Position numbers and translations under genes: made by a program. From IMG/VR virus record IMGVR_UViG_3300036851_000235, positions 1 to 42,004 of that record: a stretch of 42,004 nucleotides of DNA; one strand, 5' to 3'. The stretch is from a virus. This document shows positions 1 to 42,004 of the stretch, in pieces. Position 1 is the first letter of the stretch; every line of letters begins with the position of its first letter. The notes beneath the pieces were generated by a model. It saw only the letters and a list, made by a program, of their open reading frames with translations. It had not been told where the DNA came from and did not search any database.

Positions 1-69
1 GGCCAGCGCGTCGAGGCGGGCGTTAAGGTCGTGCTCGCGCTGCTGGAGGGCGATGAGGTTATCTCGCAC
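1..69 (-). CDS. Second copy of the first 23 codons of the major capsid gene (cut by window edge)
   Basis: Bases 69 down to 1 repeat the start of the capsid gene found complete at 40642-41946. The GTG start is preceded by AAAGGAG seven bases upstream. This is not a separate gene: it appears only because the circular genome was cut inside this gene. Confidence 0.9.
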   Translation of the reverse strand, partial: MRDNLIALQQREHDLNARLDALA

Positions 70-127
70 CGGTCTGCTCCTTTGCCGACCGGCATGGAGC
101 AGACGCGGGACGCAAAAAGAGGCGGAA
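1..127. repeat. Direct terminal repeat, left copy (assembly overlap of a circular genome)
   Basis: The first 127 bases match bases 41878-42004 exactly. The repeat lies inside the major capsid gene start and its leader, so the two ends join into one continuous gene order. The length of 127 equals a common assembler k-mer, which points to a circular contig rather than physical terminal repeats. The genome is therefore circular or circularly permuted, with a unit of 41,877 bp. Confidence 0.93.
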
Positions 128-282: not shown

Positions 283-525
283 TCAAGCGCGTGTCAAGCG
301 CGAATGCTCCTCTGCATAGCTCGCAAGACAACCGAACGAGCAGAAGTCCTTGTCATGTTCATCGACGGTCTGATCGGTATATTTCACTCGCCTAATCTGA
401 AACCAATCTTCAGGAGCTGTCATTAGATTCTTGACAGGGTGCTCGTCATTGCAATTGTCACAGGTCCAAATCGTCACTCTCTCTACGTGTGTGTAATGAA
501 TCTCCCGGTCATCGACGACTCTCAC
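283..525 (-). CDS. Small zinc-binding protein, 80 aa
   Basis: The start is an ATG overlapping the protease stop in ATGA, so the gene is translationally coupled to the prohead protease. The protein has a CxxC (CDNC) near residues 22-25 and a second cysteine pair (CSFGC) near residues 62-66, which looks like a treble-clef or zinc-ribbon pair. Function is unknown. It is one of several small Cys-pair proteins in this genome and is the last gene before the capsid leader. The 3' end contains two copies of CGCGCTTGAC, each with a TTGAC core resembling a -35 box. Confidence 0.75.
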   Translation of the reverse strand: MRVVDDREIHYTHVERVTIWTCDNCNDEHPVKNLMTAPEDWFQIRRVKYTDQTVDEHDKDFCSFGCLASYAEEHSRLTRA

Positions 526-1631
526 GAGCGCGCCCCTACTCGGTCACGGTCGAGTTGCAGCAGGTCGCGGTCGCGGGCAACCGCATCGGGGTCGGGAACT
601 ATCGCTTCTTCGAGTGAACGGCGCGCATAAACACCGTCCTCGATTTCGATCATTAATGGATCGGCCAGCGTTGCTTCTTTGTCCTGCAGGCTCCGTGTGC
701 GATTCTCGTCCTCCACCACTACCTGACTCGTGAGGTATTCGAGTGCATGTTGTTCACTAGCCGACAAGGCGTCGGCCTTCACCCCCCGGCGCTGGACACG
801 CCCACCGGACGCCAAGCGCTGGACCGTCTCGTCCAAGGTAGCGATGCGGTCGGCCATGCCCAGCCTTACCGCTTCTTGCGCGCCGACGACGCGGCCTTCG
901 CCGAAGCCGTCGCGAACGGTCTGGACGCTGACGCCACGGCCGCGAGCGACGGCCCGGACGAACATGCCGTAATAGCGGTCGACGTCCTGCTGGAAGTGGT
1001 CGCGGGCATCGTCTGAGAGTGGAAAGTCGGGGTGTCCTTCCGCCTTGTACTTACCCGCCTTGATCAGCGTGGGCTTGACGCCTTCCATTTCGGCCATCGC
1101 GGAGAAATCGTAATGCACGCCCAAGACGCCGATGCTACCGACTTCGCCGCCCGGCGTGACGATTAGCTCATCAGCCTGAGAGCCGAAGTAGTAGGCCGCG
1201 CTGGCCATGAGGCTGTTAGCCACGGCCACGATGGGCTTCTGTTCGCGCGCCTTATAGACCTCAGAGGCCAGCTCGTCCGTACCGTAGACCGACCCGCCGG
1301 GCGAGTCGATATCGAGCACGATAGCTTTGACCTGGGAGTTGTTTGCCTGCTCGCGGAAGGCGGCGAGAAACTTGTCCGTCGATGTGCCGCCGCTCATTTC
1401 CTGCATCATGCTCAAGCGCTGGGCCATGACGCCGTAGAGGGGCAGCACGGCAATAGACCCGCCGCCGTTAGTCGGGACACTGGTAGCGGCGAAAGGCTCG
1501 ACGCGGCCTTCCCATTCCAGCTCTTCGCCAGCCATCTTGGCACGCAGGAAGCGGTCGATGACGAGCGCCTTGCTGGGCATGATCATCAGCGGCCGGTCGT
1601 AGAACAGCGTCGCGACGTGGGCGTACTTCAT
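522..1631 (-). CDS. Prohead protease, S49/SppA (ClpP fold) family
   Basis: A 369-aa serine protease expected to cleave scaffold or capsid N-termini during head maturation. Family features are visible: the oxyanion-type DSPGG segment (residues 109-113), the nucleophile in LMASAAYY (Ser144), and the lysine of the Ser-Lys dyad in AGKYKAEG (about Lys196). The C-terminal third (about 290-369) is charged and helical and could serve as a fused scaffold, since no separate scaffold gene is seen. The start is ATG in an ATGA overlap with the upstream 89-aa gene. Position between portal and capsid fits the role. An alternative start at Met18 is possible. Confidence 0.9.
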   Translation of the reverse strand: MKYAHVATLFYDRPLMIMPSKALVIDRFLRAKMAGEELEWEGRVEPFAATSVPTNGGGSIAVLPLYGVMAQRLSMMQEMSGGTSTDKFLAAFREQANNSQVKAIVLDIDSPGGSVYGTDELASEVYKAREQKPIVAVANSLMASAAYYFGSQADELIVTPGGEVGSIGVLGVHYDFSAMAEMEGVKPTLIKAGKYKAEGHPDFPLSDDARDHFQQDVDRYYGMFVRAVARGRGVSVQTVRDGFGEGRVVGAQEAVRLGMADRIATLDETVQRLASGGRVQRRGVKADALSASEQHALEYLTSQVVVEDENRTRSLQDKEATLADPLMIEIEDGVYARRSLEEAIVPDPDAVARDRDLLQLDRDRVGARS

Positions 1632-1897
1632 GTTACCTGCCTCAGTTTCAGTTCGGCGATTTCTTCGCGCACGACCTCACGGATCATCGCCACCAGCTCC
1701 CGAGCCGTGACCATGCTCTTGCGGCCCGCGACCGCCACGGGTACCATCTGGCCGCCGCCCGCGTTCTGTAACTCTACGCGCTCCGGCTCGAACTGGCACT
1801 TGTCGTCCATATCGAGCACGAGCCCCACGATGGCCTGGACGCTGCCCTTGATCTTGGCGCCGCCGATCATCGGTACGTTATTGTTGCCGTTGGTCAT
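1628..1897 (-). CDS. Small protein between portal and protease, 89 aa
   Basis: Function unknown. The ATG overlaps the portal stop and the stop overlaps the protease start, both by ATGA, so it is locked into the head operon. The N-terminal half is beta-rich; the C-terminal 30 residues form a charged amphipathic helix (REVVREEIAELKLR). It could be a small head accessory protein, but there is no recognisable domain. Confidence 0.75.
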   Translation of the reverse strand: MTNGNNNVPMIGGAKIKGSVQAIVGLVLDMDDKCQFEPERVELQNAGGGQMVPVAVAGRKSMVTARELVAMIREVVREEIAELKLRQVT

Positions 1898-3462
1898 TCT
1901 CCCGCTCCCTCCCTCAGCATGAGGCCGAGCAGCTCATCCGTCTTTTCCTGCTCCCAGGACTCGATGACACCAGCGCCGTTTTGCAACAGCCGCTCGCACC
2001 AGCCCGACGCGTAGCTGCTGGAGCTCGTAGGATGAACGTAACACTTTTCCGATATGCCCCGCGCCTGCTCGCTGTAGAACTCGCGCACCGCCTGCTCCCA
2101 GCCAGCGCCATCATCCGCATAGCGTTTCGCCAACTGCTGAACCCGCTGCGTCTCCTTGTGGACGATCTGGCGCGCCATCGCGGTCGCGTAGCCCTTGAGC
2201 CGCGGGTCGGCTGGCGGCAATAACGCTGCCTGACGCGGCACGGTCCCGCGCGGCGTTGGCTCCATGCCGGCCTCGATCATGTTCATAGGCTGCAGGAAGT
2301 CGTCAAGCTCGCGCGGTCCCTGGTTGAGGTTCTCTTTGCGCCGCACTTCCTGTCGGCTCATCCAGGGTCCGTTGCCGCCGACCGCGATCTGGTAAGCCTC
2401 GAAACGGCTCTTGATATCACCGCGCAGCAGGCCCTCGATGCTGAACTCACTGAAATAGTCGCCGCCCAGCGGTTGGACCAGTTGCTTGTTGATGCGCTTC
2501 TCGTAGCGGATGAACCAGGGCAGCATGGTAAAGGTGACGAAGCCAATCTGGTACTGCTGGACGCCGGTGCCCCAATTCGAGGTCGATTCTTGCTCACCGA
2601 CCATGACGAGCGGCATGCGGAACCAGCGCGCCACGTCCGACACCTGCCACTGCTCGGAGGCTAGCATCTGCATATCGTTTGGGCTCATCGAGATGCCCTT
2701 GTACTTCATGTCATTCTCGAGAATGACGGTCTTGCCCGCGTTGGCCGCGCCGCCGTAGGTCTGCTCCCACTGCTTGCGCAGCCGCTCCGCTGCGTCCTGG
2801 TCCTTGAACGTGCCGGGGAACTCCAGCACCGCGCTGTGACGGCCGCCGTGGCGGAAGTTGCTGCCCGCGTACTGCTGCAAGGCCTGGCTGATTCCCAGCG
2901 TCTCGCGCGCGTAGTCCAGCACCGACAGCCCACCGCCGACGCCGGGGAAGGCAAAGACCTGCTCGGCGTTCAGCGTCTCGGTCGTGCCATTGATCTCGTT
3001 GCGCACCTTGTAGCGCTTGACGCCGTTTGGCAACCGCTCTTGCGTAACGCGGTCTGGGTGCAGGTATTCGAGGCTATCCACGGGGCCGCGCGGCCCGGGA
3101 CGGATGCGCGAGTAGGACCAGCCGCGCATCGCCGTGTGGATCGTGTGCGTCTCCGTCCACTCGACCGATGTCTGGTCGTCGTTGGGGTCATCGCCGTGCA
3201 GCAAGGGCCAGAGGGGATGCTCCGGCGCCTGGTCGCGGTCGCCATTGGGTAGCCGGCGATAGACGAAGAGCGGGGCACTGAGTACGGATTCGCCGATGGC
3301 GCGCAAGCAGGCGAAGAAGGTCGAGACCTTGAGCGCCGTCTCGGCCGTGACCGTGAGGCCGGCACCGCTGACGCTGCCCACGGGGCCGTACCAGAAATCA
3401 TCGTGAGGCGGGTAAGCCGCCGCCTGCGGATTGAACAAGCGGACCAGCAGGTCAGCAGTCAT
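1894..3462 (-). CDS. Portal protein, HK97 family
   Basis: A 522-aa portal, the dodecameric ring through which DNA enters the head. HK97-portal features include the N-terminal helix with VSTFFACLRAIGESV (about 46-60), a segment with GTGVQQYQIGFV that matches the family's conserved QN-type region, and the LLRGD segment before a C-terminal helical region. The C-terminal about 110 residues contain more Cys and His than usual (KCYVHPTSS). The ATG start overlaps the stop of the tiny membrane gene upstream. The order terminase, portal, protease, capsid is standard. Confidence 0.93.
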   Translation of the reverse strand: MTADLLVRLFNPQAAAYPPHDDFWYGPVGSVSGAGLTVTAETALKVSTFFACLRAIGESVLSAPLFVYRRLPNGDRDQAPEHPLWPLLHGDDPNDDQTSVEWTETHTIHTAMRGWSYSRIRPGPRGPVDSLEYLHPDRVTQERLPNGVKRYKVRNEINGTTETLNAEQVFAFPGVGGGLSVLDYARETLGISQALQQYAGSNFRHGGRHSAVLEFPGTFKDQDAAERLRKQWEQTYGGAANAGKTVILENDMKYKGISMSPNDMQMLASEQWQVSDVARWFRMPLVMVGEQESTSNWGTGVQQYQIGFVTFTMLPWFIRYEKRINKQLVQPLGGDYFSEFSIEGLLRGDIKSRFEAYQIAVGGNGPWMSRQEVRRKENLNQGPRELDDFLQPMNMIEAGMEPTPRGTVPRQAALLPPADPRLKGYATAMARQIVHKETQRVQQLAKRYADDGAGWEQAVREFYSEQARGISEKCYVHPTSSSSYASGWCERLLQNGAGVIESWEQEKTDELLGLMLREGAGE

Positions 3463-3551: not shown

Positions 3552-3732
3552 CGGACATCCTCAGCACCGTGACCATCGAGGCGCCCAGCAGGATGGAGCC
3601 TACGACGGTCAGGGCGGTTGCCGCGTCATACTTCATCGTCAGGCCCGCTCCCAGGCACAAGAGACCCGTAACGGCTATGAAGAATAAGCCGTTGTTCACG
3701 AGTATAGACCCTAGCCTTGACAATGCATTCAT
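3538..3732 (-). CDS. Small membrane protein, 64 aa, two transmembrane segments
   Basis: Hydrophobic stretches near residues 16-32 and 40-56 with short polar ends suggest a two-pass inner-membrane protein. The ATG overlaps the large terminase stop by ATGA. A membrane protein here is unusual, because terminase and portal genes normally adjoin. It may be a holin-like or membrane-targeted accessory protein. No family was recognised. Confidence 0.7.
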   Translation of the reverse strand: MNALSRLGSILVNNGLFFIAVTGLLCLGAGLTMKYDAATALTVVGSILLGASMVTVLRMSVGRH

Positions 3733-5459
3733 AAAGTGATGAAGCCGCGGCTCTCCATGAGATTCTCTTCGTCGCCCTCGTGCCGGCTGGCGCGGTCCAG
3801 CGCCATGACCAGACCCAGGACGCCGACGATGGGGCCGGGGCTCTTGGCGATGCTCGGCATGATCGCCTGCCCGGGCCCGTGTTGCGCGACCGTATTCGAC
3901 ACCTGCCAGCGCAACACCGGCTGCCCGCCGTGGCGCAGCGACTCGCCCTTGAGCAGCAATTCCAGCTCCTTTGCCGCCGCGCTCATGCCCGCGTAGCTCT
4001 GATGAAACGAGACGATATCGAAGCCGTCACCCATAAGCTGCGTCGTTAGCGCCGTGGTGTTATTGGCCAGCACGCCGACTTCTCGTATCTCGTAGAGGTC
4101 GCGCAGCCCCAGCAGCTTCTCCCGGATGGCCTCGTAATCGACTACGTTGCCCTCAGTGGCGTCGAGGTCACCGTCCGCGACCCATTGGCTTACAGGCACG
4201 TCGAAGGCCTCGGCCATCTCCTGCACGTTATCCTCGGGCAGCCAGAAGAAGGACAGCACATCGCCGCCGCCCTGTTCGTCGGGGAAGTAGAGTTGCAGCG
4301 CCGCCAGCCCCTGCGTCGATGGCGCCGCCAGCCCGGCGAAGCACGCTTTACCAGCCAGCGGCTCCGGCGGCGGCTTCGCTCCCTTCTCCCACACGTCGGC
4401 GCCAATCCAGCGCGTCACGCTCTCCGTCCAGACGCAGAAGTTGAGGCGCTTGACGATGTTGGCCTTGGCCGGCATCCCCAGAGCGGCCGCGACCTGCTGA
4501 CGTAGGTATTTGAGCGTGACGCTGACGCCGAGGTTCGGGTTGGGCTTCTGCCAGACCGCTTCGTCCGTCCAGTCGTCGCAGTCCGCGCAGCCTTCTTGCG
4601 GCATCGTGTGGCCTTCGGCGTAGCACTTCTCGCAGGAGTCGAGGCCGCAGACGAAGGCGAACCACGAATCGTTCTCGATCACGCCTTCGAGGATGCGCAC
4701 GCTCAACTCGTGGTGCTGATAGCAGACGCTCTGGCGGTCGTAGCCCGAGTTGGTGATCTCGATGATTAGCGCTTGGGTCCGGCCCTTGGTACCAGCGCCC
4801 ATTTTGTCAACCACCAGCGACGTCGGATGCTCGTGGATCTCGTCGATGATCGCGCAGTGAACCCGCTTACTGTCGAGCGCCCGGTGCTCACTCGATACCG
4901 CGCGGAAGAAGCTGTTGGTCTGGTGAAACGAGATATTGTGTTCCTTGATGTCCAGACGCCGTACCAGAGCGGGCGACGATTCGCCCATCAGCTTAGCGTC
5001 CCGGAAGCAAGTCGATGCCTGCTCCCTGGTCACGGCCGCCGCGTAGACCTCAGCCGATGCCTCACCATCCGCCACCAGCATGTACAGCCCGATGCCGGCA
5101 GCCAGAGGCGTCTTACCGTTGCCCTTGGCAATCTCGATGTAGGCATCGCGGAAGCGCCGATAGCCATCGTTACCCTTCCAGCCAAAGAGACAACCGACGA
5201 TGAAGATTTGCCAGGGCTGCAACGTGAAGGGCTTGCCCGCGTGCTCACCCTCGGCGAGATGGAGGAAGCCGAAGAAGGCGATGGCATCGTTAGCCGCGGC
5301 TTCCTCGAACCAGAGGCCGCGCTCGCCGCCGTTCTCCAGGTCGCGCAGATGGCGCTCGCAGGCGAGACGCACGAAGCGCCCAGCGATAACGGCGCCGGCA
5401 ACAACGGATTGCGCGTAGAGCGTGACGGGATGAGTCGCGGCGGGCGCGGCGGTGGTCAT
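3729..5459 (-). CDS. terL: Large terminase (Terminase_1 type) with intact ATPase and degenerate nuclease motifs
   Basis: A 576-aa packaging motor. The ATPase is intact: adenine-binding LQPWQ near residue 80, Walker A GNGKT at 113-117, Walker B AIIDE with Asp206/Glu207. The C-terminal RNase H-like domain is recognisable from its conserved backbone (FHQSYAGMSAAAKELE, PVLRW, SN). Its catalytic positions are not acidic: motif I reads GLAAP instead of the usual GLDLS (Ala378), motif II has Leu464 where YDP is usual, and motif III has IVG (Val545) instead of IDG. A Cys cluster at 271-294 (CxxC pairs) is inserted between the domains. The chosen ATG (5459) overlaps the stop of the zinc protein by ATGA; the open frame upstream of it looks non-coding. 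Confidence 0.92.
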   Translation of the reverse strand: MTTAAPAATHPVTLYAQSVVAGAVIAGRFVRLACERHLRDLENGGERGLWFEEAAANDAIAFFGFLHLAEGEHAGKPFTLQPWQIFIVGCLFGWKGNDGYRRFRDAYIEIAKGNGKTPLAAGIGLYMLVADGEASAEVYAAAVTREQASTCFRDAKLMGESSPALVRRLDIKEHNISFHQTNSFFRAVSSEHRALDSKRVHCAIIDEIHEHPTSLVVDKMGAGTKGRTQALIIEITNSGYDRQSVCYQHHELSVRILEGVIENDSWFAFVCGLDSCEKCYAEGHTMPQEGCADCDDWTDEAVWQKPNPNLGVSVTLKYLRQQVAAALGMPAKANIVKRLNFCVWTESVTRWIGADVWEKGAKPPPEPLAGKACFAGLAAPSTQGLAALQLYFPDEQGGGDVLSFFWLPEDNVQEMAEAFDVPVSQWVADGDLDATEGNVVDYEAIREKLLGLRDLYEIREVGVLANNTTALTTQLMGDGFDIVSFHQSYAGMSAAAKELELLLKGESLRHGGQPVLRWQVSNTVAQHGPGQAIMPSIAKSPGPIVGVLGLVMALDRASRHEGDEENLMESRGFITL

Positions 5460-5662
5460 GGGTTCGTGTTCCGATAACTGACCGGGACCATCGCCGCCGG
5501 TTGGCTTAGAGCGCGCTTTATGCAATCGACACAGAAATGCGGCCCGGCGGCGGCACCGAATGTTGAGGGTTGCGCCCAACCCGACGGGACGCTGAGAGTA
5601 TCGCGCTCGACCTTCAGACCACAGCCGTCGCAGCGAAAGAGGACCGTCATGCTGTAACTCAT
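5456..5662 (-). CDS. Zinc-ribbon protein between the terminase subunits, 68 aa
   Basis: Two CxxC pairs (CDGC near 11-14 and CVDC near 44-47) indicate one zinc site. The ATG overlaps the small terminase stop and the TGA overlaps the large terminase start, both by ATGA, so the three are made together. Its place inside the terminase operon suggests a packaging accessory, but this is only inferred from position. Confidence 0.75.
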   Translation of the reverse strand: MSYSMTVLFRCDGCGLKVERDTLSVPSGWAQPSTFGAAAGPHFCVDCIKRALSQPAAMVPVSYRNTNP

Positions 5663-6147
5663 GCCTTGTTCTTCTTTGCCATGTAGGCCTCGAAGGGGTC
5701 CTCTGCGCCAGCGGCCGGCGGCACCTTAATCCGGCTTCTGGACGTAGCGCCGGCGCCGAACTCGCGCAGGATGGCAAGCGCGTCCTGCAACGCGGCCTTG
5801 CTGATGGCGATCTCGGCCCGCGCCTGGTCGCCGTTCGATGGCGTCTTGCGCGTAATCGCCCTCCCAAGCTTCCTGACCGAGCGCCGATAGAGAGACCAGC
5901 GCTCACAGGCGGCAGCGATCATCGGCACATCCACGACGGATAGCACGCCGGCCTGAAGCAGCGGTGGCACAATCTCAGCCCACAGCTCCCGGCCGAAATC
6001 GTCCAGCCAGGTCGGCGATTCGGCGGGCGCAGGCGCGAACTGCGGCTCATTTTCGTTAAGTGGGCGATGGCCAGGGTTGTCGTTGAGGATGTGAATCCGC
6101 GTCGGTAGCTTGTTGTGGCCGCCGGACCTGCCGGGCTTACCGGCCAC
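5659..6147 (-). CDS. terS: Small terminase, P27 family
   Basis: A 162-aa DNA-recognition subunit of the packaging motor. The N-terminus has the family pattern: a basic GKPGRSGG start, HILNDNPGHRPLNENEP, then a helical bundle rich in Trp and Leu. The GTG at 6147 is chosen because GAGG lies six bases upstream and the product then begins like the family. Longer in-frame extensions are Arg-rich and overlap the HNH gene antiparallel to no purpose. It overlaps the HNH stop by 11 bases. Confidence 0.88.
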   Translation of the reverse strand: MAGKPGRSGGHNKLPTRIHILNDNPGHRPLNENEPQFAPAPAESPTWLDDFGRELWAEIVPPLLQAGVLSVVDVPMIAAACERWSLYRRSVRKLGRAITRKTPSNGDQARAEIAISKAALQDALAILREFGAGATSRSRIKVPPAAGAEDPFEAYMAKKNKA

Positions 6148-6559
6148 GGGCCACCTCGATTTGATGCGACGGTGTGTATGTACCGAAGGCGCCGCTCGCA
6201 AGCGATGATCGTTTTCGACTTTCGATCCGCCCTTCCCTTGCTCGCTTTCGTATCTCGCCCGCCGTCTTGCTGTTGTGGCAGGCCGCGCACATCGAACGGT
6301 AACGACTGCGATCGAAGAAGGCGTCGACATTGCCTCGCGGTGCTGGCTCGTGGTCAACCACGGTAGCTAGCCTACCGCACTGGACGCAGAAGGGATGAGC
6401 AGCAAGCCACGCCTTGCTCTCGTGCGTCCAGCGTGAGGTCGAGTAGAGCTGGTTGCTACGCTCGGCGCCTTCGAACGGCCGTCGTGCGGCGTGGACCGGG
6501 CAAGGCTGCGTATTCGGACAGCGTGGCTCCCGGCAGGGCGTGGCGGGCTTTGAGGGCAT
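6137..6559 (-). CDS. HNH endonuclease adjacent to the terminase genes
   Basis: A 140-aa HNH protein. The beta-beta-alpha-metal core is visible: CxxC at residues 58-61, VVDH (Asp69/His70), then CAACHN at 91-96 with the final His/Asn. A Cys-rich N-terminus (CxxxxC, CPVH) may bind another metal. HNH proteins in this position cooperate with the terminase in DNA packaging in HK97-like phages. That matters here because the large terminase appears to have lost its own nuclease residues. Confidence 0.9.
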   Translation of the reverse strand: MPSKPATPCREPRCPNTQPCPVHAARRPFEGAERSNQLYSTSRWTHESKAWLAAHPFCVQCGRLATVVDHEPAPRGNVDAFFDRSRYRSMCAACHNSKTAGEIRKRAREGRIESRKRSSLASGAFGTYTPSHQIEVARGR

Positions 6560-7128: not shown

Positions 7129-7187
7129 GGCCACTCCCTTAATTCATAGCGCGATAGCTCCGTCCACTCGATCTTTGTGGGGTTCAT
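7125..7187 (-). CDS. 20-codon microgene, possible remnant of a DUF5131 (Gp37/Gp68) gene
   Basis: The ATG overlaps the J-domain stop (ATGA) and the TGA overlaps the next ATG. The product starts MNPTKIEWTE, which resembles the TKIEWT opening of DUF5131 phage proteins, then ends after ten more residues. It may be a truncated remnant whose start was kept to preserve translational coupling. This comparison is from memory and is tentative. Confidence 0.35.
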   Translation of the reverse strand: MNPTKIEWTELSRYELREWP

Positions 7188-7684
7188 GACGCGCCCTTGA
7201 GTTTCTTGTAAGCCTCGTCCAGTTCCCTAAACGCCGCCGCGTCGCCACCCTGGACATCGGGGTGCAGTTTCTTCGCCAGCGTCCGGTAGGCCGCGTCGAC
7301 CATCTCGGACGGCGCACCGCGTTGTAGTTGCATGATCTCCCAAGAGTCGCGCTCCGTCTTGCCCGCAGGCAGCGCCATGAGAGACTCACGCAGCGAACTT
7401 AGGGACCCGCGGGCTTCGGCCAGGCGCATGTCGCGGATATTCAGGTAGCAGCAACGCAAGTTCGTACCGAAGTCCTCCCATGCGTCGATACGAACGTTGA
7501 TGCGGGCACCGCGCATTAGGAACACGACCGACGATTCGCGCTGGTTAGATCGCTGCATTGGCAGGTCGTAGTCCGTGATGATGCGGTCGCCAGCCTGTAT
7601 GTTCCACTTGCGAAACTCGTCCTCGATGTCACGGCGGGTCACTGACGGGCTTGCACCACGCCGCGGGGTGTATTTGTACGCCAT
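7184..7684 (-). CDS. DnaJ-like (J-domain) protein, 166 aa
   Basis: The C-terminal 50 residues form a J domain: helix II with YRTLAKKL, the invariant HPD (141-143), the GGD loop, and helix III with FRELDEAYKKL. Such domains recruit and stimulate host Hsp70 (DnaK). The N-terminal about 110 residues are a mixed alpha/beta region of unknown role, with WEDFGTNLR and paired cysteines at 78-79. The domain lies at the C-terminus, as in several phage J-proteins and unlike cellular DnaJ. It may redirect DnaK to replication or virion assembly. Confidence 0.85.
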   Translation of the reverse strand: MAYKYTPRRGASPSVTRRDIEDEFRKWNIQAGDRIITDYDLPMQRSNQRESSVVFLMRGARINVRIDAWEDFGTNLRCCYLNIRDMRLAEARGSLSSLRESLMALPAGKTERDSWEIMQLQRGAPSEMVDAAYRTLAKKLHPDVQGGDAAAFRELDEAYKKLKGAS

Positions 7685-11467: not shown

Positions 11468-12852
11468 CAGGACACCCCGATCCATGCAGGTAGACTCATG
11501 GGCTTGCCGGCGCTGTATTCGTAATCGATGTGAATCTGGCCCAGCTCGGCCCGCTCGTAGGCCGCGACGTGCTTGACCAATTCGCGCGCCATCTCTTCGG
11601 CCTCACGCTCCTTGCGGAGGACGTTCCAGTAGATTTCCTGCTCCGGCTCCGAGAGGACTACGTAAGCCTCTACGGGCTCGCTCTGACCGAAGCGCCAGCA
11701 GCGCCGGACCGCCTGGTAGTACTGCTCGTAGCTGTCGCCGAGACCGACGAAGGCCATGCGCGCACAGTTCTGGAAATTCATGCCGAAACCGGCAATCGTA
11801 GCCTTCGTCACCAGAACTGCATCCCGCGATTCGCAGAATGCTTCTAACTTCTCGGCCTTCTCTTCCGGTGACTGACTACCCGTAACTTCGATGGCTCGCG
11901 CGCCTATCGTTCTGGCAAGCGCCGCGCTCTCGTCATTGAGGCCGCACCATGCGATGAAAGGCTGGCCAGCATGACCGTCGATTAACTCCGCCGTCGCATC
12001 GACGCGAGCCACCAGGGTCTGGCGTCTGACGGCCGTCCGATCCTGTATACCGTGCAGTTTGTCGGGAAACAGCCGCCCCGAGAGCTGGACATCGGCCTGC
12101 ACTATCAGCGGCTTAATCGATAGTGGTGTCAGGTTGTAGCCTTCGTCCTGGTAGCCGAGGTCCGAGGGCTTCTTGAGCGACATTCCCCAGGATGCCAGCC
12201 AGCGCCAGAACGTCGGCCGTGCATGATTCTTGAGACGCCAGCCCGAGGCCCGCGCGTCATCTGATTGATGAGTGAAGAACGTCGCAAGCACGTCGCGGCG
12301 CGGCATTATGCTCAGGAACGTTGCGTGGTTGGTTATCTCCTGAATGTCGTTTGGCGCCGGCGTCGCGGTACAGCACAACAACCAGGGCGTTCTCTCGAAG
12401 CACTCAATCAGCCGGTTGCGGTAGACACCTTCCGTCGCTTTGAGGATGCTGGACTCATCCAGCACGATGCACTCAAAGGCACCAGGGTCGAAGCGGTGCA
12501 GCATCTCGTAGTTGGTGATCACGGTCTGGTAGCCGCGTACATCGTCCTGGCTGCGCACATAGGGCACATCGAGGTCGATGGCTGCGGCCTCCTTGACCGT
12601 CTGCTTGGCGATGCTCAGGGGTGCCAGGATCAGCCCACGCTTCTTGCTTAGGCGAGCGAACTCCAGCTGCTGGCGCGTCTTGCCCAGGCCCGCATCCTCG
12701 AACAGAGCTGCCCGTCCCTTGGCCAGAGCCCAGCGCGTCATATCGCGCTGGAAGGGGAAGAGCGAGGCGTGGATGTGTTCAGGCTCGACCGCGATGCCCG
12801 TAGACGGCGCCGTCATGCGCTTGCCGGCCAGGAATGCAGCGTAGTCGCTCAC
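11467..12852 (-). CDS. SNF2-like superfamily 2 helicase/ATPase, 461 aa
   Basis: Walker A DAGLGKT (53-59), motif II LDESS (Asp132/Glu133), motif III CTATPAPND (about 160-168), a STTATAG-like later motif in VTKATIAGFGMNFQ, and motif VI QAVRRCWRFGQ place it in the SNF2/DEAD-like group common in phage replication modules. It probably remodels DNA at forks or during recombination with the adjacent nuclease and Bet protein. The GTG start at 12852 overlaps the nuclease stop (GTGA); the Arg-rich extension upstream is the nuclease gene read in another frame. Confidence 0.92.
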   Translation of the reverse strand: MSDYAAFLAGKRMTAPSTGIAVEPEHIHASLFPFQRDMTRWALAKGRAALFEDAGLGKTRQQLEFARLSKKRGLILAPLSIAKQTVKEAAAIDLDVPYVRSQDDVRGYQTVITNYEMLHRFDPGAFECIVLDESSILKATEGVYRNRLIECFERTPWLLCCTATPAPNDIQEITNHATFLSIMPRRDVLATFFTHQSDDARASGWRLKNHARPTFWRWLASWGMSLKKPSDLGYQDEGYNLTPLSIKPLIVQADVQLSGRLFPDKLHGIQDRTAVRRQTLVARVDATAELIDGHAGQPFIAWCGLNDESAALARTIGARAIEVTGSQSPEEKAEKLEAFCESRDAVLVTKATIAGFGMNFQNCARMAFVGLGDSYEQYYQAVRRCWRFGQSEPVEAYVVLSEPEQEIYWNVLRKEREAEEMARELVKHVAAYERAELGQIHIDYEYSAGKPMSLPAWIGVS

Positions 12853-13250
12853 AGCCCCGCCCTCGCGCGCCCGTCTGCCCGCCCTGCCTCCAGGCGTAGC
12901 ACGCGCTCTACCTCGCCCGAGAGCCAATCACTAGGCCGCCAGACATAGGCTGCGGCGCCGCCTGCCTCAAACGCAGCCAGCCACCTTGATTGATCCGGCG
13001 TTAACTTCCCGCCGATCACCTTTAGTTCAGCCGCCAGCAACCGCCCATGCCCTGCAATCACCAGGTCAGGAAAGCCCACATCGCCCTGCATCGCCGTACG
13101 CCAGCCGTGGGCCGTGCGCGCTGGCCGGAAGTGGGCGACGCGGTAGCCCAGGGCCTGTGCCAGCTTCACGACGTAGCCGGTCAGCAATTGCTCGCTCATC
13201 GACCTCGCGATCAAGGTCTGCGCTTTGTCGGCGGGGATGGTCTGCGTCAT
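12849..13250 (-). CDS. VRR-NUC nuclease, 133 aa
   Basis: A PD-(D/E)xK nuclease with the VRR-NUC pattern: GFPDLV (Asp62), AAELK (Glu75, Lys77), then LTPDQSRW with Gln87, and YVWRPSDW near the end. Stand-alone VRR-NUC proteins next to SNF2 helicases are typical of phages and are thought to cut branched DNA. Here it may partner the Bet annealing protein, since no other exonuclease is seen. A shorter start at Met18 has a closer GAGG. Confidence 0.9.
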   Translation of the reverse strand: MTQTIPADKAQTLIARSMSEQLLTGYVVKLAQALGYRVAHFRPARTAHGWRTAMQGDVGFPDLVIAGHGRLLAAELKVIGGKLTPDQSRWLAAFEAGGAAAYVWRPSDWLSGEVERVLRLEAGRADGRARAGL

Positions 13251-20054: not shown

Positions 20055-20447
20055 CTAACCTCCCGGCGTCGGCGGCTTGGCGCCTCTATATTTCTGCAAA
20101 GCCCGCTGATAGAAGCCAGCAAGATTCTCCCAATCACTCTCGTTCTCTTGCCAGGCGATCAGTCCTTTGAGCGGTGTGTAGGCACAGGAGCGCAGGTCGT
20201 TAGCATGAGCAACGCCGTCGTAACTAAAAGCAATTTCTTGGGGCATCCGCCCGGCACAGAACCACGTCTGGCCTGGTTCAGGGGTGCGGATATCTCTGTA
20301 GCTGCCATCTCTGAGGTTATGCAATGGCGTGCAACGCGGTTCAGGACACAGCCAAGGCCGAGGCATCGTGGCCAGTGGTTCCGGCAGCCGCGCTTTCTTA
20401 TCGGCGGCCACCCGCCTCGCAATAATTGAACGCCTGATATGACCCAT
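20055..20447 (-). CDS. 130-aa protein with Cys pairs, function unknown
   Basis: The ATG at 20447 lies in a TGATG overlap with the protease stop. The protein has a short basic start, CPEPRC near residue 33-38, WFCAG and a later RSCAY, followed by a Trp-rich helical end (ENESDWENLAGFYQRAL). Coupling to the protease suggests a lysis or virion accessory role. Confidence 0.6.
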   Translation of the reverse strand: MGHIRRSIIARRVAADKKARLPEPLATMPRPWLCPEPRCTPLHNLRDGSYRDIRTPEPGQTWFCAGRMPQEIAFSYDGVAHANDLRSCAYTPLKGLIAWQENESDWENLAGFYQRALQKYRGAKPPTPGG

Positions 20448-21601
20448 CACGACGGCGGCGCCTGGATGGTCAGTGGCCACGTCGCGCCAAGTGTGAAGTG
20501 GATATCGACCTGGCTGACACTGCCGAGAATGCGTCGCAATGTAGCCTCGTCATCGTCAGGCGGCGTCACAGGCTCAACGCTACCGAAGTCGGCTTGCATC
20601 ATGAGACTGCCGGGACCGTCCGGCGGAGCCTTGCCATGACCGAGCAGATAATTAACCGCCGCGAGCCGTGATAGTCCCCCGGCTCGCAGGAGCGCCACAA
20701 AACCGGCGACGTGAGGACATGACATCGACGTGCCGCTCATAGCCGCGATGCCGTTCAGCGTGTTCGCCTGAGCTGCGTCGATGCTGACGCCATTGGCACC
20801 CAAACGGTTCGGGTTGCTCCAGTTACGACCCGATGTGAAGGCGGCCCAGGCGCGGCCGCGGTCGTGCGCCATTACGATCAGATCCGCCGCCCTTGCTGGC
20901 GAACCTATCTGCGCGTTAGGCGTATTGCCCGCTGCCACCACGACGACTGCGCCGAGAGCTTTAGCGTAGTCACAGGCCGAGTCCATGACCTGAGAAGCGC
21001 CCCCACCCAGACTCAGATTGATGACGTCCGCCCCCGCTTCGGCAGCGGCACGGATGCCGTTTGCTATTTGTGATTCGGAGCCGGACCCTGAATCAGATAG
21101 TACCTTGTAGGCCAAGAGGCGCGCCTTGGATGCAACGCCCTTGTTGCCGCCAGCAGTCGACGCCACATGCGTCCCGTGGCCGTGACCGTCCTGGAGGTCA
21201 CCTGAGAGCTGCACCCCCTGGAAGAAGGCATGACCGGGATAAATGCCCGTATCGCAGACAGCAATCGTCGCGCCTTCGCCGTTCTTGCCTCGCGCCAGCA
21301 CGTCGGCATTGACGCCGTGCAATGCGAAAGTATCGCCTACCGCTTCGATGTCAGCCTGGAGACGTACGTCGGGGAAGCCGAGCACCTGATAGTCCGTATG
21401 CTCGACACGCCAATCGACCCATTCTTGGGTGTGCTCGTTCATAAATTGCCCGATACGGTTCACGTCCCATTCGTCGGGCAATGTGACGATCGCCTGCCGG
21501 CTGTCTGGCAGCGAGAAGGCTATCGGGTAGCTGTGCCAGGTGTCGCCTGTGTCGAGCGCGAGCAATCCGGGCAACGCGCGAAATTCGACCTTGATATTCA
21601 T
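20447..21601 (-). CDS. Subtilisin-like serine protease (peptidase S8), 384 aa
   Basis: The catalytic triad is intact: CDTGIY with Asp117, GHGTHVAS with His142, GTSMSCPHVAG with Ser292; the oxyanion Asn is in AAGN (Asn225). Residues 1-100 form a prodomain-like region. No signal peptide is seen, so export would depend on holin pores or virion packaging. The ATG at 21601 overlaps the endolysin stop (ATGA), so protease and endolysin are made together. It may cut a proteinaceous envelope layer or activate a lysis protein. Confidence 0.92.
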   Translation of the reverse strand: MNIKVEFRALPGLLALDTGDTWHSYPIAFSLPDSRQAIVTLPDEWDVNRIGQFMNEHTQEWVDWRVEHTDYQVLGFPDVRLQADIEAVGDTFALHGVNADVLARGKNGEGATIAVCDTGIYPGHAFFQGVQLSGDLQDGHGHGTHVASTAGGNKGVASKARLLAYKVLSDSGSGSESQIANGIRAAAEAGADVINLSLGGGASQVMDSACDYAKALGAVVVVAAGNTPNAQIGSPARAADLIVMAHDRGRAWAAFTSGRNWSNPNRLGANGVSIDAAQANTLNGIAAMSGTSMSCPHVAGFVALLRAGGLSRLAAVNYLLGHGKAPPDGPGSLMMQADFGSVEPVTPPDDDEATLRRILGSVSQVDIHFTLGATWPLTIQAPPS

Positions 21602-22374
21602 CTGACCTCCGGGAGCGTGTCCCAATAGCTAGGCCGGCTCAGCACCGGCAGCGTGGCGACGAAAGAGCCGTCTAGGGCACGGACCTCCATCGCGTCGCCG
21701 ACTTCGTAGACGTGGTAGTCGTTGAGCGTGGCCCACTCGAGCAGCGTCCTGCCACGTAGATTCAGCAGCTCGTCTCGTTGCTGTTCGTTCAAGCCATCTC
21801 CCTCCTGGAGATCCCTCATCAATGCATCCCATGGGAAGCCCGCGCCCGGGTCGCTGCGCTGGTTACTCACCTGGTAGTGACCGATGATGTGCTCGCGATC
21901 CAGCGGGATGCCATAGTGGCCGCAGCGGTGGCGGATAAGAGCGATCAAGCTCGCCCACTGCGCCGGCGTCAGCGTCTCGTGAATCGTTGCCGCGCGGCCC
22001 TCGATCTCGATGCTAAACGACTGCCAGTTCAGGCTCGTGCTCGGGTCCGCCCAGGACGGGTACGGCTTGCCCTCGACGCCGTTGGCGATCGCCATGCAGG
22101 ACTCCGGCACCAGCTGGTAGACGTCGCCATCGTTGTCCAAGTAATAGGTCGTGCTCGCCTCGCGGTTGGGCTGGGCAAAGAAGGCCGGCGTCGATTCGAC
22201 ATTGTCTGCCGGCTCCTCCGGCGTGTGCAGCACGCAGCCCCGCGGCCGGTTCGGCACGCCACCGTGCCCAGCCGGCGTGCGGTAGTTCGTCTGGTGAGCT
22301 GGATACACGATGGCCAGCGGGTAGTCCGGCGCGAAACTCGGGTTGCTATTCGGCGGCAGCGGCTCCGACGCCAT
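21598..22374 (-). CDS. Endolysin, N-acetylmuramoyl-L-alanine amidase (Amidase_2)
   Basis: A 258-aa peptidoglycan amidase with the family's zinc ligands: VLHT (His50), IIGHYQV (His166) and SDPGAGFPW (Asp175), plus TTYYLD in the active-site strand. The N-terminal 35 residues are Pro-rich. The C-terminal about 60 residues are a separate small domain with WATLNDYHVYEVGDAM, perhaps a wall-binding module. It starts at an ATG that overlaps the small membrane gene's stop and ends inside the ATG of the S8 protease. Confidence 0.92.
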   Translation of the reverse strand: MASEPLPPNSNPSFAPDYPLAIVYPAHQTNYRTPAGHGGVPNRPRGCVLHTPEEPADNVESTPAFFAQPNREASTTYYLDNDGDVYQLVPESCMAIANGVEGKPYPSWADPSTSLNWQSFSIEIEGRAATIHETLTPAQWASLIALIRHRCGHYGIPLDREHIIGHYQVSNQRSDPGAGFPWDALMRDLQEGDGLNEQQRDELLNLRGRTLLEWATLNDYHVYEVGDAMEVRALDGSFVATLPVLSRPSYWDTLPEVR

Positions 22375-32160: not shown

Positions 32161-32754
32161 TTACACCCCAACCTTTGCCAGACGGCGTCGATTAGCTACC
32201 TGTTGGCTTTGTGTAGCCCAGCGACAGTTGCCCAGTTCGTAATTGCCGTCATTATCTTTGCGGTCGATGGACAAGCCTGCAGGGCGTTCGCCCATGTCGG
32301 CCAGAAAATTCTCAAAGATAAGCCACCGTTGACAGACTGTGATCCCGCGCCCGCCATAGTAACGAAACCTTGTATTGTTCGGGTTCAGACAGCGCTGGAG
32401 CATACCGCTCCAACTGTTGTATGTGCTGGTGTGGATGTACTTAATCGCATGACCATGCCGAACGTGAGCAACCCTCATTTTGAGTTTGGTTTCCGATGCG
32501 TGAGTCCGTCCCTTCATAGCATTGGCGATTCGAGCGCTCCATTCCGGCGAGCGGGGCGGACGCTTTATCCCAAGACGCGCTGCACTAGCACAGTTGCGGC
32601 AACGCGCTGCTGATCGGTTGGGCTTCGGGCCACCACAGATAGGGCACTTGACCTGCTCAGGCTTTCGAGTGCTGTTGACCCTGCACTGACGACAACGCTG
32701 GGATGTCACCTTCAGTTTTGGCCCTCCGCACTCTGAGCAAATAAAGTTAGCCAC
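32161..32754 (-). CDS. HNH homing endonuclease inserted at the tape-measure start, 197 aa
   Basis: The N-terminus has two or three zinc ribbons (CSECGG, CRQCR, CPICGG, CRNC). The C-terminus has the homing-type HNH pattern YNSWSGM, YYGGRGI, FLADMGERP, DRKDNDG and NCRWAT. It is a free-standing gene with GTG start. Its TAA lies only three bases from the tape-measure reading start. Related in the C-terminal half to the plus-strand enzyme at 34350-35096. Confidence 0.9.
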   Translation of the reverse strand: MANFICSECGGPKLKVTSQRCRQCRVNSTRKPEQVKCPICGGPKPNRSAARCRNCASAARLGIKRPPRSPEWSARIANAMKGRTHASETKLKMRVAHVRHGHAIKYIHTSTYNSWSGMLQRCLNPNNTRFRYYGGRGITVCQRWLIFENFLADMGERPAGLSIDRKDNDGNYELGNCRWATQSQQVANRRRLAKVGV

Positions 32755-38405: not shown

Positions 38406-38885
38406 TTAGCGCGCCATCACCAGGCCCTCGTGCTTTGGGTGGGCGGCGGCTGGCGGCGGAACCAGGTCAACTACGAGATGGATGCGCACCGTGTCGCCCC
38501 AATTGATCGAGGCATGCTCAATCGTTGGGTCTACCATGTAGATGCCACCCATCTCTAATTGCTGCCAGTCGCCGCCGTGGAAGTTCCAGCAGTGCGAGTT
38601 GGTCTGGAGCACCAGGTGATGGCGCAGGAGACCTTCGCGCAGTGGCAGGTCCCGATGAACGGGAATGTTGCCACCGAGGGGCCGCAGTGCCACCAGCATC
38701 GAATAGGCCCATTCGCCGGGCATCCATCCTGCAAGGTCGCCTCGGAACGCCTCCCGGACCGCGATCAGATGGTCGGTCGTCGTCCCGTGGCCGTCCGATG
38801 CCCAGGCCAGGTCAAAGGACGCAAGCCTAGCCGCCAACTCCTGCAGAGGGATCTTCCCGTCGTAGCTGCCGACCCGCTGGTACAT
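38406..38885 (-). CDS. Aspartyl/asparaginyl beta-hydroxylase-like 2-oxoglutarate oxygenase, 159 aa
   Basis: Fe(II)-binding facial triad His77-x-Asp79 (PVHRDL) and His124 (EHASIN); Arg134 (TVRIHLVVD) would bind 2-oxoglutarate. The framework (RHHLVLQTN, GGIYMVDP) follows the AspH-type cupin family. It lies between virion surface genes and the connector. The substrate may be a virion protein or a host protein, not seen in the sequence. Confidence 0.8.
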   Translation of the reverse strand: MYQRVGSYDGKIPLQELAARLASFDLAWASDGHGTTTDHLIAVREAFRGDLAGWMPGEWAYSMLVALRPLGGNIPVHRDLPLREGLLRHHLVLQTNSHCWNFHGGDWQQLEMGGIYMVDPTIEHASINWGDTVRIHLVVDLVPPPAAAHPKHEGLVMAR

Positions 38886-40641: not shown

Positions 40642-41946
40642 CTAGGCTCGCGTCGCCAACGTGACAAAGGCGCTCTGCGCCTTGGTCCCCTGAGCTGGTG
40701 TTAGGGTGCTGTTGCGGATGGGCTGGCCGTCGAAGCGTAGAATCCAGCGGAAGCACTCTTCGTCGGTCAGGAAGGCGACGTGAAGGCTTGAGGCTTGGGC
40801 GATGCCGCCCTTGTCGATGGTGATGTATCCATCCCAGTCGGCGAAAATGATGTCGCCGACTGTGCCGAGCGTAGCCGCCTGCTCGATTGGCGTGATGGGC
40901 CTGCCCAGCAAGAGGCCGAAAGGTGCAGCCGAGAGACCGCCCGGAGGGATGAATACCGGCACGCCGCCGACGCCGACTTCAGCCGTGAGACTGAAGAGTG
41001 CTGGCCAGACATCCTGATTCATGTACCACTCGGCCCGGGGAATCGAAGAGGCAAAGATTTGGGCAAACATCTTTTCCAGGTTGGCCCTGAGGATGGTCGC
41101 CGCCGGCTGGTTGGTTTCCTTGGCAATGCTCACCGTGCCGGCATGGCCGACGATGCCCAGCGGCATACCAGCGCCTGTGCCGCGAATCAGCGCATCGTCA
41201 ACCTTGAACGCCATCTCTTCCGTGAACGCCATGCCTGCGGCGGCGCCAAGGGCAGCGGCATCCTGGATGAGCTCGTCCGTCGCGTAGTAGAGCGCCGTCA
41301 GCTTGTTCAGTTCTAGCGCGATCTGGCGGTACTTGGGCTTAGTGCCGGTGAGTGTCCCGCCCTCAGCGGTCCAGTAAGCCTGGACGCCACCCCAGCGCGA
41401 GCCATTGACGCGGCTGGTTTCGTCGACGCCGTTGATCTTCAGGCCGTTGGCATTGGTCGAGATCGGCACGCGTCGCGTCCGGCTGACCAGGACGCTTGCC
41501 TGGTGGACCTCTCGCAACAGCTCCGTCGAGAAGTCGGTCTGCACCGCGAAGCCGCCATCAGAGGCGACGCCTTCACTGGCGCCAGTAACCGCCGCCTGAA
41601 TGTCCAGGAGCCGCGGATCCGGCCGGTGCGGGTTCATGGCCGCTTGACGCACGGCTATCAACTGGTCGCCGAGGCTGGCAAAGGGCGTAACCAGCGCCGT
41701 CTGGCTGACCACGCGCCCCGTCTGCTCTTCCACGGCGCCCGGCGCTTCGCGAATCTCGCGGCGGCGCTCCTGCACGAAGGCGATGTCAGAACGCAGGCCC
41801 GGCAGTTCGGCCATGATGGCGTCGCGCTCGGCGCGCTCTTCCGCCGTCAGCGGGCGGTTCTCTGTCTCGATAAGGGTGGCCAGCGCGTCGAGGCGGGCGT
41901 TAAGGTCGTGCTCGCGCTGCTGGAGGGCGATGAGGTTATCTCGCAC
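40642..41946 (-). CDS. Major capsid protein, HK97 fold, 434 aa
   Basis: The first about 100 residues are a charged helical delta domain (EREHDLNARLDAL, FVQERRREIREAP) removed after scaffolding. The capsid core follows: TEGGTLTGTKPKYRQIALELNK in part, LYYATDELIQDA, RGTGAGMPLGI, MNQDVWPAL, GRPITPIEQA, VGDIIFADW. GTG start with AAAGGAG. The gene continues in the other end of the window because the genome is circular. Confidence 0.95.
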   Translation of the reverse strand: MRDNLIALQQREHDLNARLDALATLIETENRPLTAEERAERDAIMAELPGLRSDIAFVQERRREIREAPGAVEEQTGRVVSQTALVTPFASLGDQLIAVRQAAMNPHRPDPRLLDIQAAVTGASEGVASDGGFAVQTDFSTELLREVHQASVLVSRTRRVPISTNANGLKINGVDETSRVNGSRWGGVQAYWTAEGGTLTGTKPKYRQIALELNKLTALYYATDELIQDAAALGAAAGMAFTEEMAFKVDDALIRGTGAGMPLGIVGHAGTVSIAKETNQPAATILRANLEKMFAQIFASSIPRAEWYMNQDVWPALFSLTAEVGVGGVPVFIPPGGLSAAPFGLLLGRPITPIEQAATLGTVGDIIFADWDGYITIDKGGIAQASSLHVAFLTDEECFRWILRFDGQPIRNSTLTPAQGTKAQSAFVTLATRA

Positions 41947-42004
41947 CGGTCTGCTCCTTTGCCGACCGGCATGGAGCAGACGCGGGACGCAAAAAGAGGC
42001 GGAA
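41878..42004. repeat. Direct terminal repeat, right copy
   Basis: Identical to bases 1-127. Joining the two copies restores the order protease, zinc protein, terminator, capsid. Confidence 0.93.

Follow-up and report, generated by a model that had tools for sequence, protein, structure and literature searches.

A large terminase subunit without the catalytic aspartates of its nuclease domain in a circular HK97-like phage genome

The large terminase subunit (TerL) encoded in the window, by which we mean the whole 42,004-nucleotide stretch of viral DNA analysed here (IMG/VR record IMGVR_UViG_3300036851_000235), has lost all three metal-binding aspartates and the active-site lysine of its nuclease domain, and has kept its ATPase motifs. 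The initial annotation of this DNA had suggested that the protein is a motor that cannot cut DNA itself. Based on sequence comparison and a predicted structure this seems the best reading to us as well, since other terminases share the loss, the predicted fold is intact and purifying selection acts on the domain. Beyond that annotation, we found a conserved and selected lineage of nuclease-dead TerLs, which has apparently been exchanged between phages. Below, TerLs that lack all three aspartates are called dead and those that have them active.

Genome and packaging genes

The first and last 127 bp of the window are identical, so that the record of 42,004 bases is circularly closed. Across the junction the genes read through, from the protease gene over a small ORF and the junction to the capsid gene. 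A length of 127 is a common assembler word size, and the repeat is probably an assembly overlap. Lysis, tail, capsid, portal and protease genes are all present in the 42-kb circle, the products recognised including connector and tail proteins, an endolysin, RecT, a helicase, a methylase and a primase-like protein, and many ORFs have no family match. Only one match to the TerL_nuclease family was found. The window is a complete HK97-like tailed-phage genome with a single TerL, and its gene order HNH-TerS-TerL-portal-protease-capsid is that of HK97 (Table 1). No integrase or polymerase A was matched among the window ORFs, and a search of the window for a type-B polymerase, performed without a positive control, gave no match either.

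An Asp/Asn beta-hydroxylase-like protein (38406-38885; PF05118, E 2e-11) is encoded among the head and connector genes, a DnaJ-domain protein with a C-terminal J domain (7184-7684) between the primase-like gene and the packaging genes, and a subtilase (20447-21625; Peptidase_S8, E 4e-33; phrog_3677 protease) adjoining the endolysin gene.

Table 1. Features of the window, with positions, strand and the basis of each assignment
Feature	Position	Strand	Basis
127-bp terminal direct repeat, copy 1	1..127		identical to 41878-42004
Head maturation protease (S49)	522..1631	minus	PF01343, phrog_53
Portal protein	1894..3462	minus	PF04860, 271 bits
TerL, 576 aa, predicted nuclease-dead	3729..5459	minus	Pfam, PHROGs, HK97 TerL 6z6d (sequence and fold)
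TerL RNase H-like nuclease domain, residues 293-561, predicted catalytically dead	3777..4583	minus	PF20441; AlphaFold2 model; dN/dS
V545, replaces motif III Asp (HK97 D471)	3825..3827	minus	D in 153/156 other TerL ORFs; HK97 alignment
I537, replaces active-site Lys (HK97 K463 by spacing)	3849..3851	minus	K in 95% of relatives; PMC9410871
L464, replaces motif II Asp (HK97 D388)	4068..4070	minus	D in 153/156 other TerL ORFs; HK97 alignment
A378, replaces motif I Asp (HK97 D302)	4326..4328	minus	D in 153/156 other TerL ORFs; HK97 alignment
TerL ATPase domain, residues 82-251	4707..5216	minus	PF03354
Walker B IIDE, residues 204-207, intact	4839..4850	minus	alignment with relatives
Walker A GNGKT, residues 113-117, intact	5109..5123	minus	alignment with relatives
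Small terminase subunit (TerS; P27/Terminase_4 family); start probably downstream of that of the listed ORF	5659..6357	minus	PF05119, phrog_83
HNH protein, in the position of HK97 gp74	6137..6559	minus	phrog_144 E 8e-20; alignment
VRR-NUC/PD-(D/E)XK-type nuclease with FPD...ELK motif, alternative candidate cutter	12849..13250	minus	PF08774 just under cut-off; phrog_93
Major capsid protein, beside the protease via the circular junction	40642..41946	minus	phrog_10
127-bp terminal direct repeat, copy 2	41878..42004		identical to 1..127

The TerL gene starts with ATG at 5459 and its span includes the stop codon. The protein matched the Pfam families TerL_ATPase (PF03354, 96 bits) and TerL_nuclease (PF20441, 82 bits), both well over the curated cut-offs, as well as the large terminase family of PHROGs (phrog_9, E 4e-145), and HK97 TerL (6z6d) was its sole relative in the PDB by sequence (phmmer, E 1.4e-27). 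It has the two-domain architecture of the HK97 protein, with an N-terminal ASCE ATPase containing the Walker A and B motifs, which were found intact as the initial annotation had stated, and a C-terminal RNase H-like domain of the TerL_nuclease family. Its locus, compared with those of relatives, shows the order TerS-TerL-portal-protease-capsid with the HNH gene upstream, as in HK97-type systems; what is missing are the three metal-binding aspartates. The window TerL is a variant of the HK97-type terminase that is new in its dead nuclease site.

Loss of the nuclease active site

In HK97 TerL the catalytic aspartates are D302, D388 and D471, and K463 reaches into the active site (PMC9410871); the window protein has A, L and V at the three aspartate positions and I at that of the lysine. 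In the phmmer alignment the window motifs GLAAPSTQG (motif I), GVLANNTT (motif II) and GPIVG (motif III) stand opposite GLDLS, FDRW and RIDG of HK97 6z6d, the usual forms in HK97 and its relatives being GLDLS, the [YF]D[PRQ]W type and [KR]IDG. Loss of the three metal-binding residues had been noticed in the initial annotation, and both the HK97 alignment and the alignment of 156 ORFs bear it out; its residue numbering (e.g. Leu464) is also correct. Misalignment was rejected as a cause, as the flanks of motifs II and III aligned without gaps and both a three-way alignment and the HK97 alignment concurred. A chance mutation or sequencing error was likewise rejected, because two further TerLs (L002 and L023, see below) carry losses at identical positions.

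The three dead TerLs were compared at the positions that are conserved in at least 70% of the active relatives. Changed in all three were N342, D378, L379, D384, R415, Y423, D464, W466, P495, N532, K537, D545 and V548; eight of these lost residues (D378, L379, D384, D464, W466, N532, K537 and D545) lie at or beside the active site. Kept in all three were, among others, G430, T435, the NP of 307-308, and the scaffold residues W426, G437, H510, P514, W518 and N522. At column 433 all three have gained an acid (D/E/E), where only 5% of the relatives are acidic, and D431 is a new acid in two of the three. The glutamate of the TEGN motif (436) was considered as a substitute ligand and rejected, being common in active TerLs.

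A structural model of the window TerL was made with AlphaFold2 from an alignment of 60 relatives, from which five phage-record rows were left out. The mean pLDDT was 92.9 and the RNase H core was intact; strands 372-378 and 457-464 each end at a lost position, and the third lost position marks the start of helix 545-558. Foldseek ranked HK97 TerL first (1e-36), which makes this protein the best PDB match by structure as well as by sequence, and also found the RuvC-like nuclease of the headful terminase of G20c / P74-26 (5m1f; prob 1.00, TM 0.64 over target). Whole-chain TM-scores were low (0.4-0.5), which is expected with two hinged domains. According to the model, the RNase H fold is kept despite the lost active site. 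R415, Y423 and the acidic column 433 fall in a helix-helix-strand segment of the model (409-435). An alpha-alpha-beta element of HK97 TerL was proposed as a platform for the HNH protein (PMC9410871), and by its position only segment 409-435 may be the same element.

Prevalence of the loss

Both an alignment with large terminase subunits and a search of metagenomes for close relatives had been proposed in the initial annotation. We aligned the window protein with 156 TerL ORFs, from loci obtained in three protein scans of viral contigs and from records of phages and one genome. Asp was present at all three catalytic columns in 153 of the 156; the window, L002 and L023 were the only sequences without all three, the remaining exception (L105_223) being a fragment without the nuclease domain. 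Apart from this fragment, a partial loss of one or two aspartates was not seen among the window and the 156 ORFs. A further 31 TerL ORFs all had D/D/D: one came from a Bradyrhizobium phage and 30, including one identical to L058, from a sample of 399 bacterial genomes.

In addition, 2.9 million viral contigs were searched with two degenerate DNA patterns based on the dead motifs II and III, and these returned only L002 and L023; an earlier, stricter DNA pattern had recovered L023 only. A scan for dead TerLs in genome contigs gave only one active relative. Loss of the aspartates is rare and all-or-none, and is thus more than sporadic decay. Three dead TerLs are known, two of them on 5-kb fragments, and nuclease-dead cos TerLs were not found in the literature searched.

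Common origin, selection and exchange

The TerL of L002 is 84% identical to that of the window overall and 93% in the nuclease domain, with the motifs GLAAPTTQG, GVLANNTT and GPIVG. L023 is more distant (about 40-44% identity; nuclease domain 40%) and has GLVTAEDG, AVRQHNTT and GSIVG. In a tree of the nuclease domain the three dead TerLs formed one clade (support 0.976). This clade branches from among active domains; the 18-leaf node around it has a support of only 0.66. Six catalytic columns had been removed before the tree was built, so the clade was checked against convergent placement through the lost columns. These results show that the loss of the aspartates in the window, L002 and L023 has a shared origin. 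With 0.61 substitutions per site the stem branch of the window and L002 is long, in keeping with accelerated change once catalysis was lost.

Between the window and L002, the dead half of the protein (residues 233-565) had a dN of 0.047 and a dS of 0.53 (ratio 0.09), against 0.27 and 0.95 for the ATPase half. The dead nuclease domain is under purifying selection. These two proteins are about 67% identical up to around residue 238 and about 93% identical beyond it. A tree of the ATPase domain paired the window with L002 (0.94), with L023 placed elsewhere; the portal protein of the window is 59% identical to that of L023 and only 25% to that of L002. Since the dead domain thus stands beside different ATPase domains and different portals, these comparisons mark it as a module that has been exchanged between phages.

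A probable motor without cutting activity

To our knowledge, all tailed phages that cut concatemers are described as having the TerL nuclease, and the sole natural exception we know of, the phi29-like phages, does no cutting. We propose that in the window phage the ATPase of the sole TerL still pumps DNA, and that the nuclease domain, without its two-metal site (D378A, D464L, D545V, K537I), would contribute to the motor only structurally, in DNA binding and in docking to the portal. A single loss, in the ancestor of the small lineage formed by the window, L002 and L023, would have been followed by spread of the dead domain between phages via recombination. Another enzyme would cut the genome ends in trans; the most likely one is the HNH protein, whose gene lies immediately upstream of that for TerS and which TerS would guide. 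We put the probability of this whole account, a motor-only TerL with HNH cutting in trans, at about 0.5. Taken by themselves, absence of activity from the nuclease domain is very likely and a working motor is likely. In the first respect the active G20c enzyme is instructive: it uses D294, D347 and D429, Asn substitution at any of which gave the lowest activity, and mutating any one equivalent Asp nearly abolishes cutting (PMC5389553).

If true, such a cos-type TerL, with the entire domain present and under selection but no active site, would uncouple the motor role from the cutting role, the sharing of the cos cut between HNH and TerL would become directly testable, and a natural uncoupled motor would be available for packaging studies.

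Candidate nucleases

The initial annotation had suggested the HNH protein as a possible cutter, and this stands as regards the gene, which lies upstream of TerS in an HK97-like place; it is weakened by the protein itself and by the company in which such genes are found. The protein matches an HNH packaging family and, like GVE2 HNHE and HK97 gp74, has the DH and CH residues and both CxxC pairs. Unlike these two, it has Arg for the middle Asn, so that of the His/Asn/His motif only the first and last His are present. The middle Asn is present in about 38 HNH ORFs that neighbour TerL at related loci; L052, in which TerL is active, has Trp at this position. The window protein did not match the Pfam HNH model, although the HNH of a Halomonas phage did, but other HNH relatives are also poor matches and the miss is weak evidence. 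The N109A mutant of GVE2 HNHE lost 60% of its nicking and kept about 40% (PMC5304195), so activity of the window HNH is possible, although this protein could be weak or even inactive.

HNH genes occur beside active TerLs too (L017, L019 and L020); the HNH is therefore not an added compensator and its presence is not specific. In the cos systems known to us, an HNH protein works with an active TerL and never in its place. In HK97 the partner, gp74, stimulates cos cutting by the active TerL (PMC9410871). As the cutter of the window phage the HNH protein is the most likely candidate, an assignment that we make tentatively and at somewhat less than even odds.

A motor-only TerL might instead be served by a cutter other than HNH, for example the VRR-NUC-type enzyme, a host nuclease or a phage protein that is not annotated. 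The damaged motif of the window HNH, the FPD...ELK motif retained in the VRR-NUC-type protein and the many window ORFs that match no family all fit this; we nevertheless regard it as rather unlikely. The VRR-NUC-type gene lies in a replication/recombination cluster by RecT and the helicase, outside the packaging cluster, and a direct link to packaging was not found. Equally doubtful is a cos-type phage lineage with cutting wholly outside TerL, in which the HNH is degenerate too and a nuclease new to packaging makes the cuts; TerL would then do no more than translocate DNA, its pseudo-nuclease domain being retained for the assembly of the motor. A homing-type HNH gene (32161-32754) was set aside as a candidate cutter, as it resembles widespread free-standing phage HNH genes and sits among tail genes.

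Alternative explanations

No cut at all would be needed if the phage packaged unit-length genomes as phi29 does. The packaging ATPases gp16 of phi29 and gp11 of asccphi28 have an RNase H-like domain without nuclease residues, as the window TerL has, and phi29 gp16, which keeps a RuvC-like fold without activity, packages unit-length genomes (PMC7672431). These genomes are linear, protein-primed and protein-capped, and packaging uses pRNA and no TerS; the phi29 domain has also lost one strand and a helix and has no recognisable sequence similarity to that of the window, which is full-size. The 127-bp circular closure sets the window apart from a linear genome whose ends are fixed and protein-capped. 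TerS and HNH genes, unused by phi29-like phages, are present, and for replication the window encodes a primase, a helicase, RecT and a VRR-NUC-type protein, with neither polymerase A nor, in the search without positive control, a type-B polymerase found. The window TerL resembles the vestigial-nuclease motor of phi29 in one respect and is outside that family, and unit-length packaging is improbable here.

It is more improbable still that the nuclease cuts by means of relocated metal ligands; column 433 and the altered segment 429-436 are examples of where these could be. The rare acid at column 433 and the new D431 would suit this, but three carboxylates have been lost along with the active-site Lys, the three dead TerLs have no conserved new triad in common, the acid at 436 is common in active TerLs, and RuvC-type catalysis requires residues at fixed places (PMC5389553). 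We give the least credence to a decayed, non-functional gene copy or a defective element aided by the terminase of another phage: substitutions have removed a normally essential activity and L002 and L023 are fragments of unknown completeness, but the reading frame is intact, dN/dS is 0.09, the fold is predicted with high confidence, the Walker motifs are kept, the same positions are lost in three separate contigs, and the closed 42-kb genome has capsid, portal, protease, tail and lysis genes. A motor-only TerL, with HNH cutting in trans, thus remains our preferred reading.

Unusual loci among the relatives

Downstream of the portal gene in L023 (2393-5277) the usual protease and capsid genes are absent and a gene on the opposite strand is present instead; from this layout, L023 could be a remnant or else a prophage that was rearranged. 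In L011, L012 and L013 (about 540-2600) an intein-like insertion of ~390 residues was found in the Walker A motif of TerL, after GNGK.
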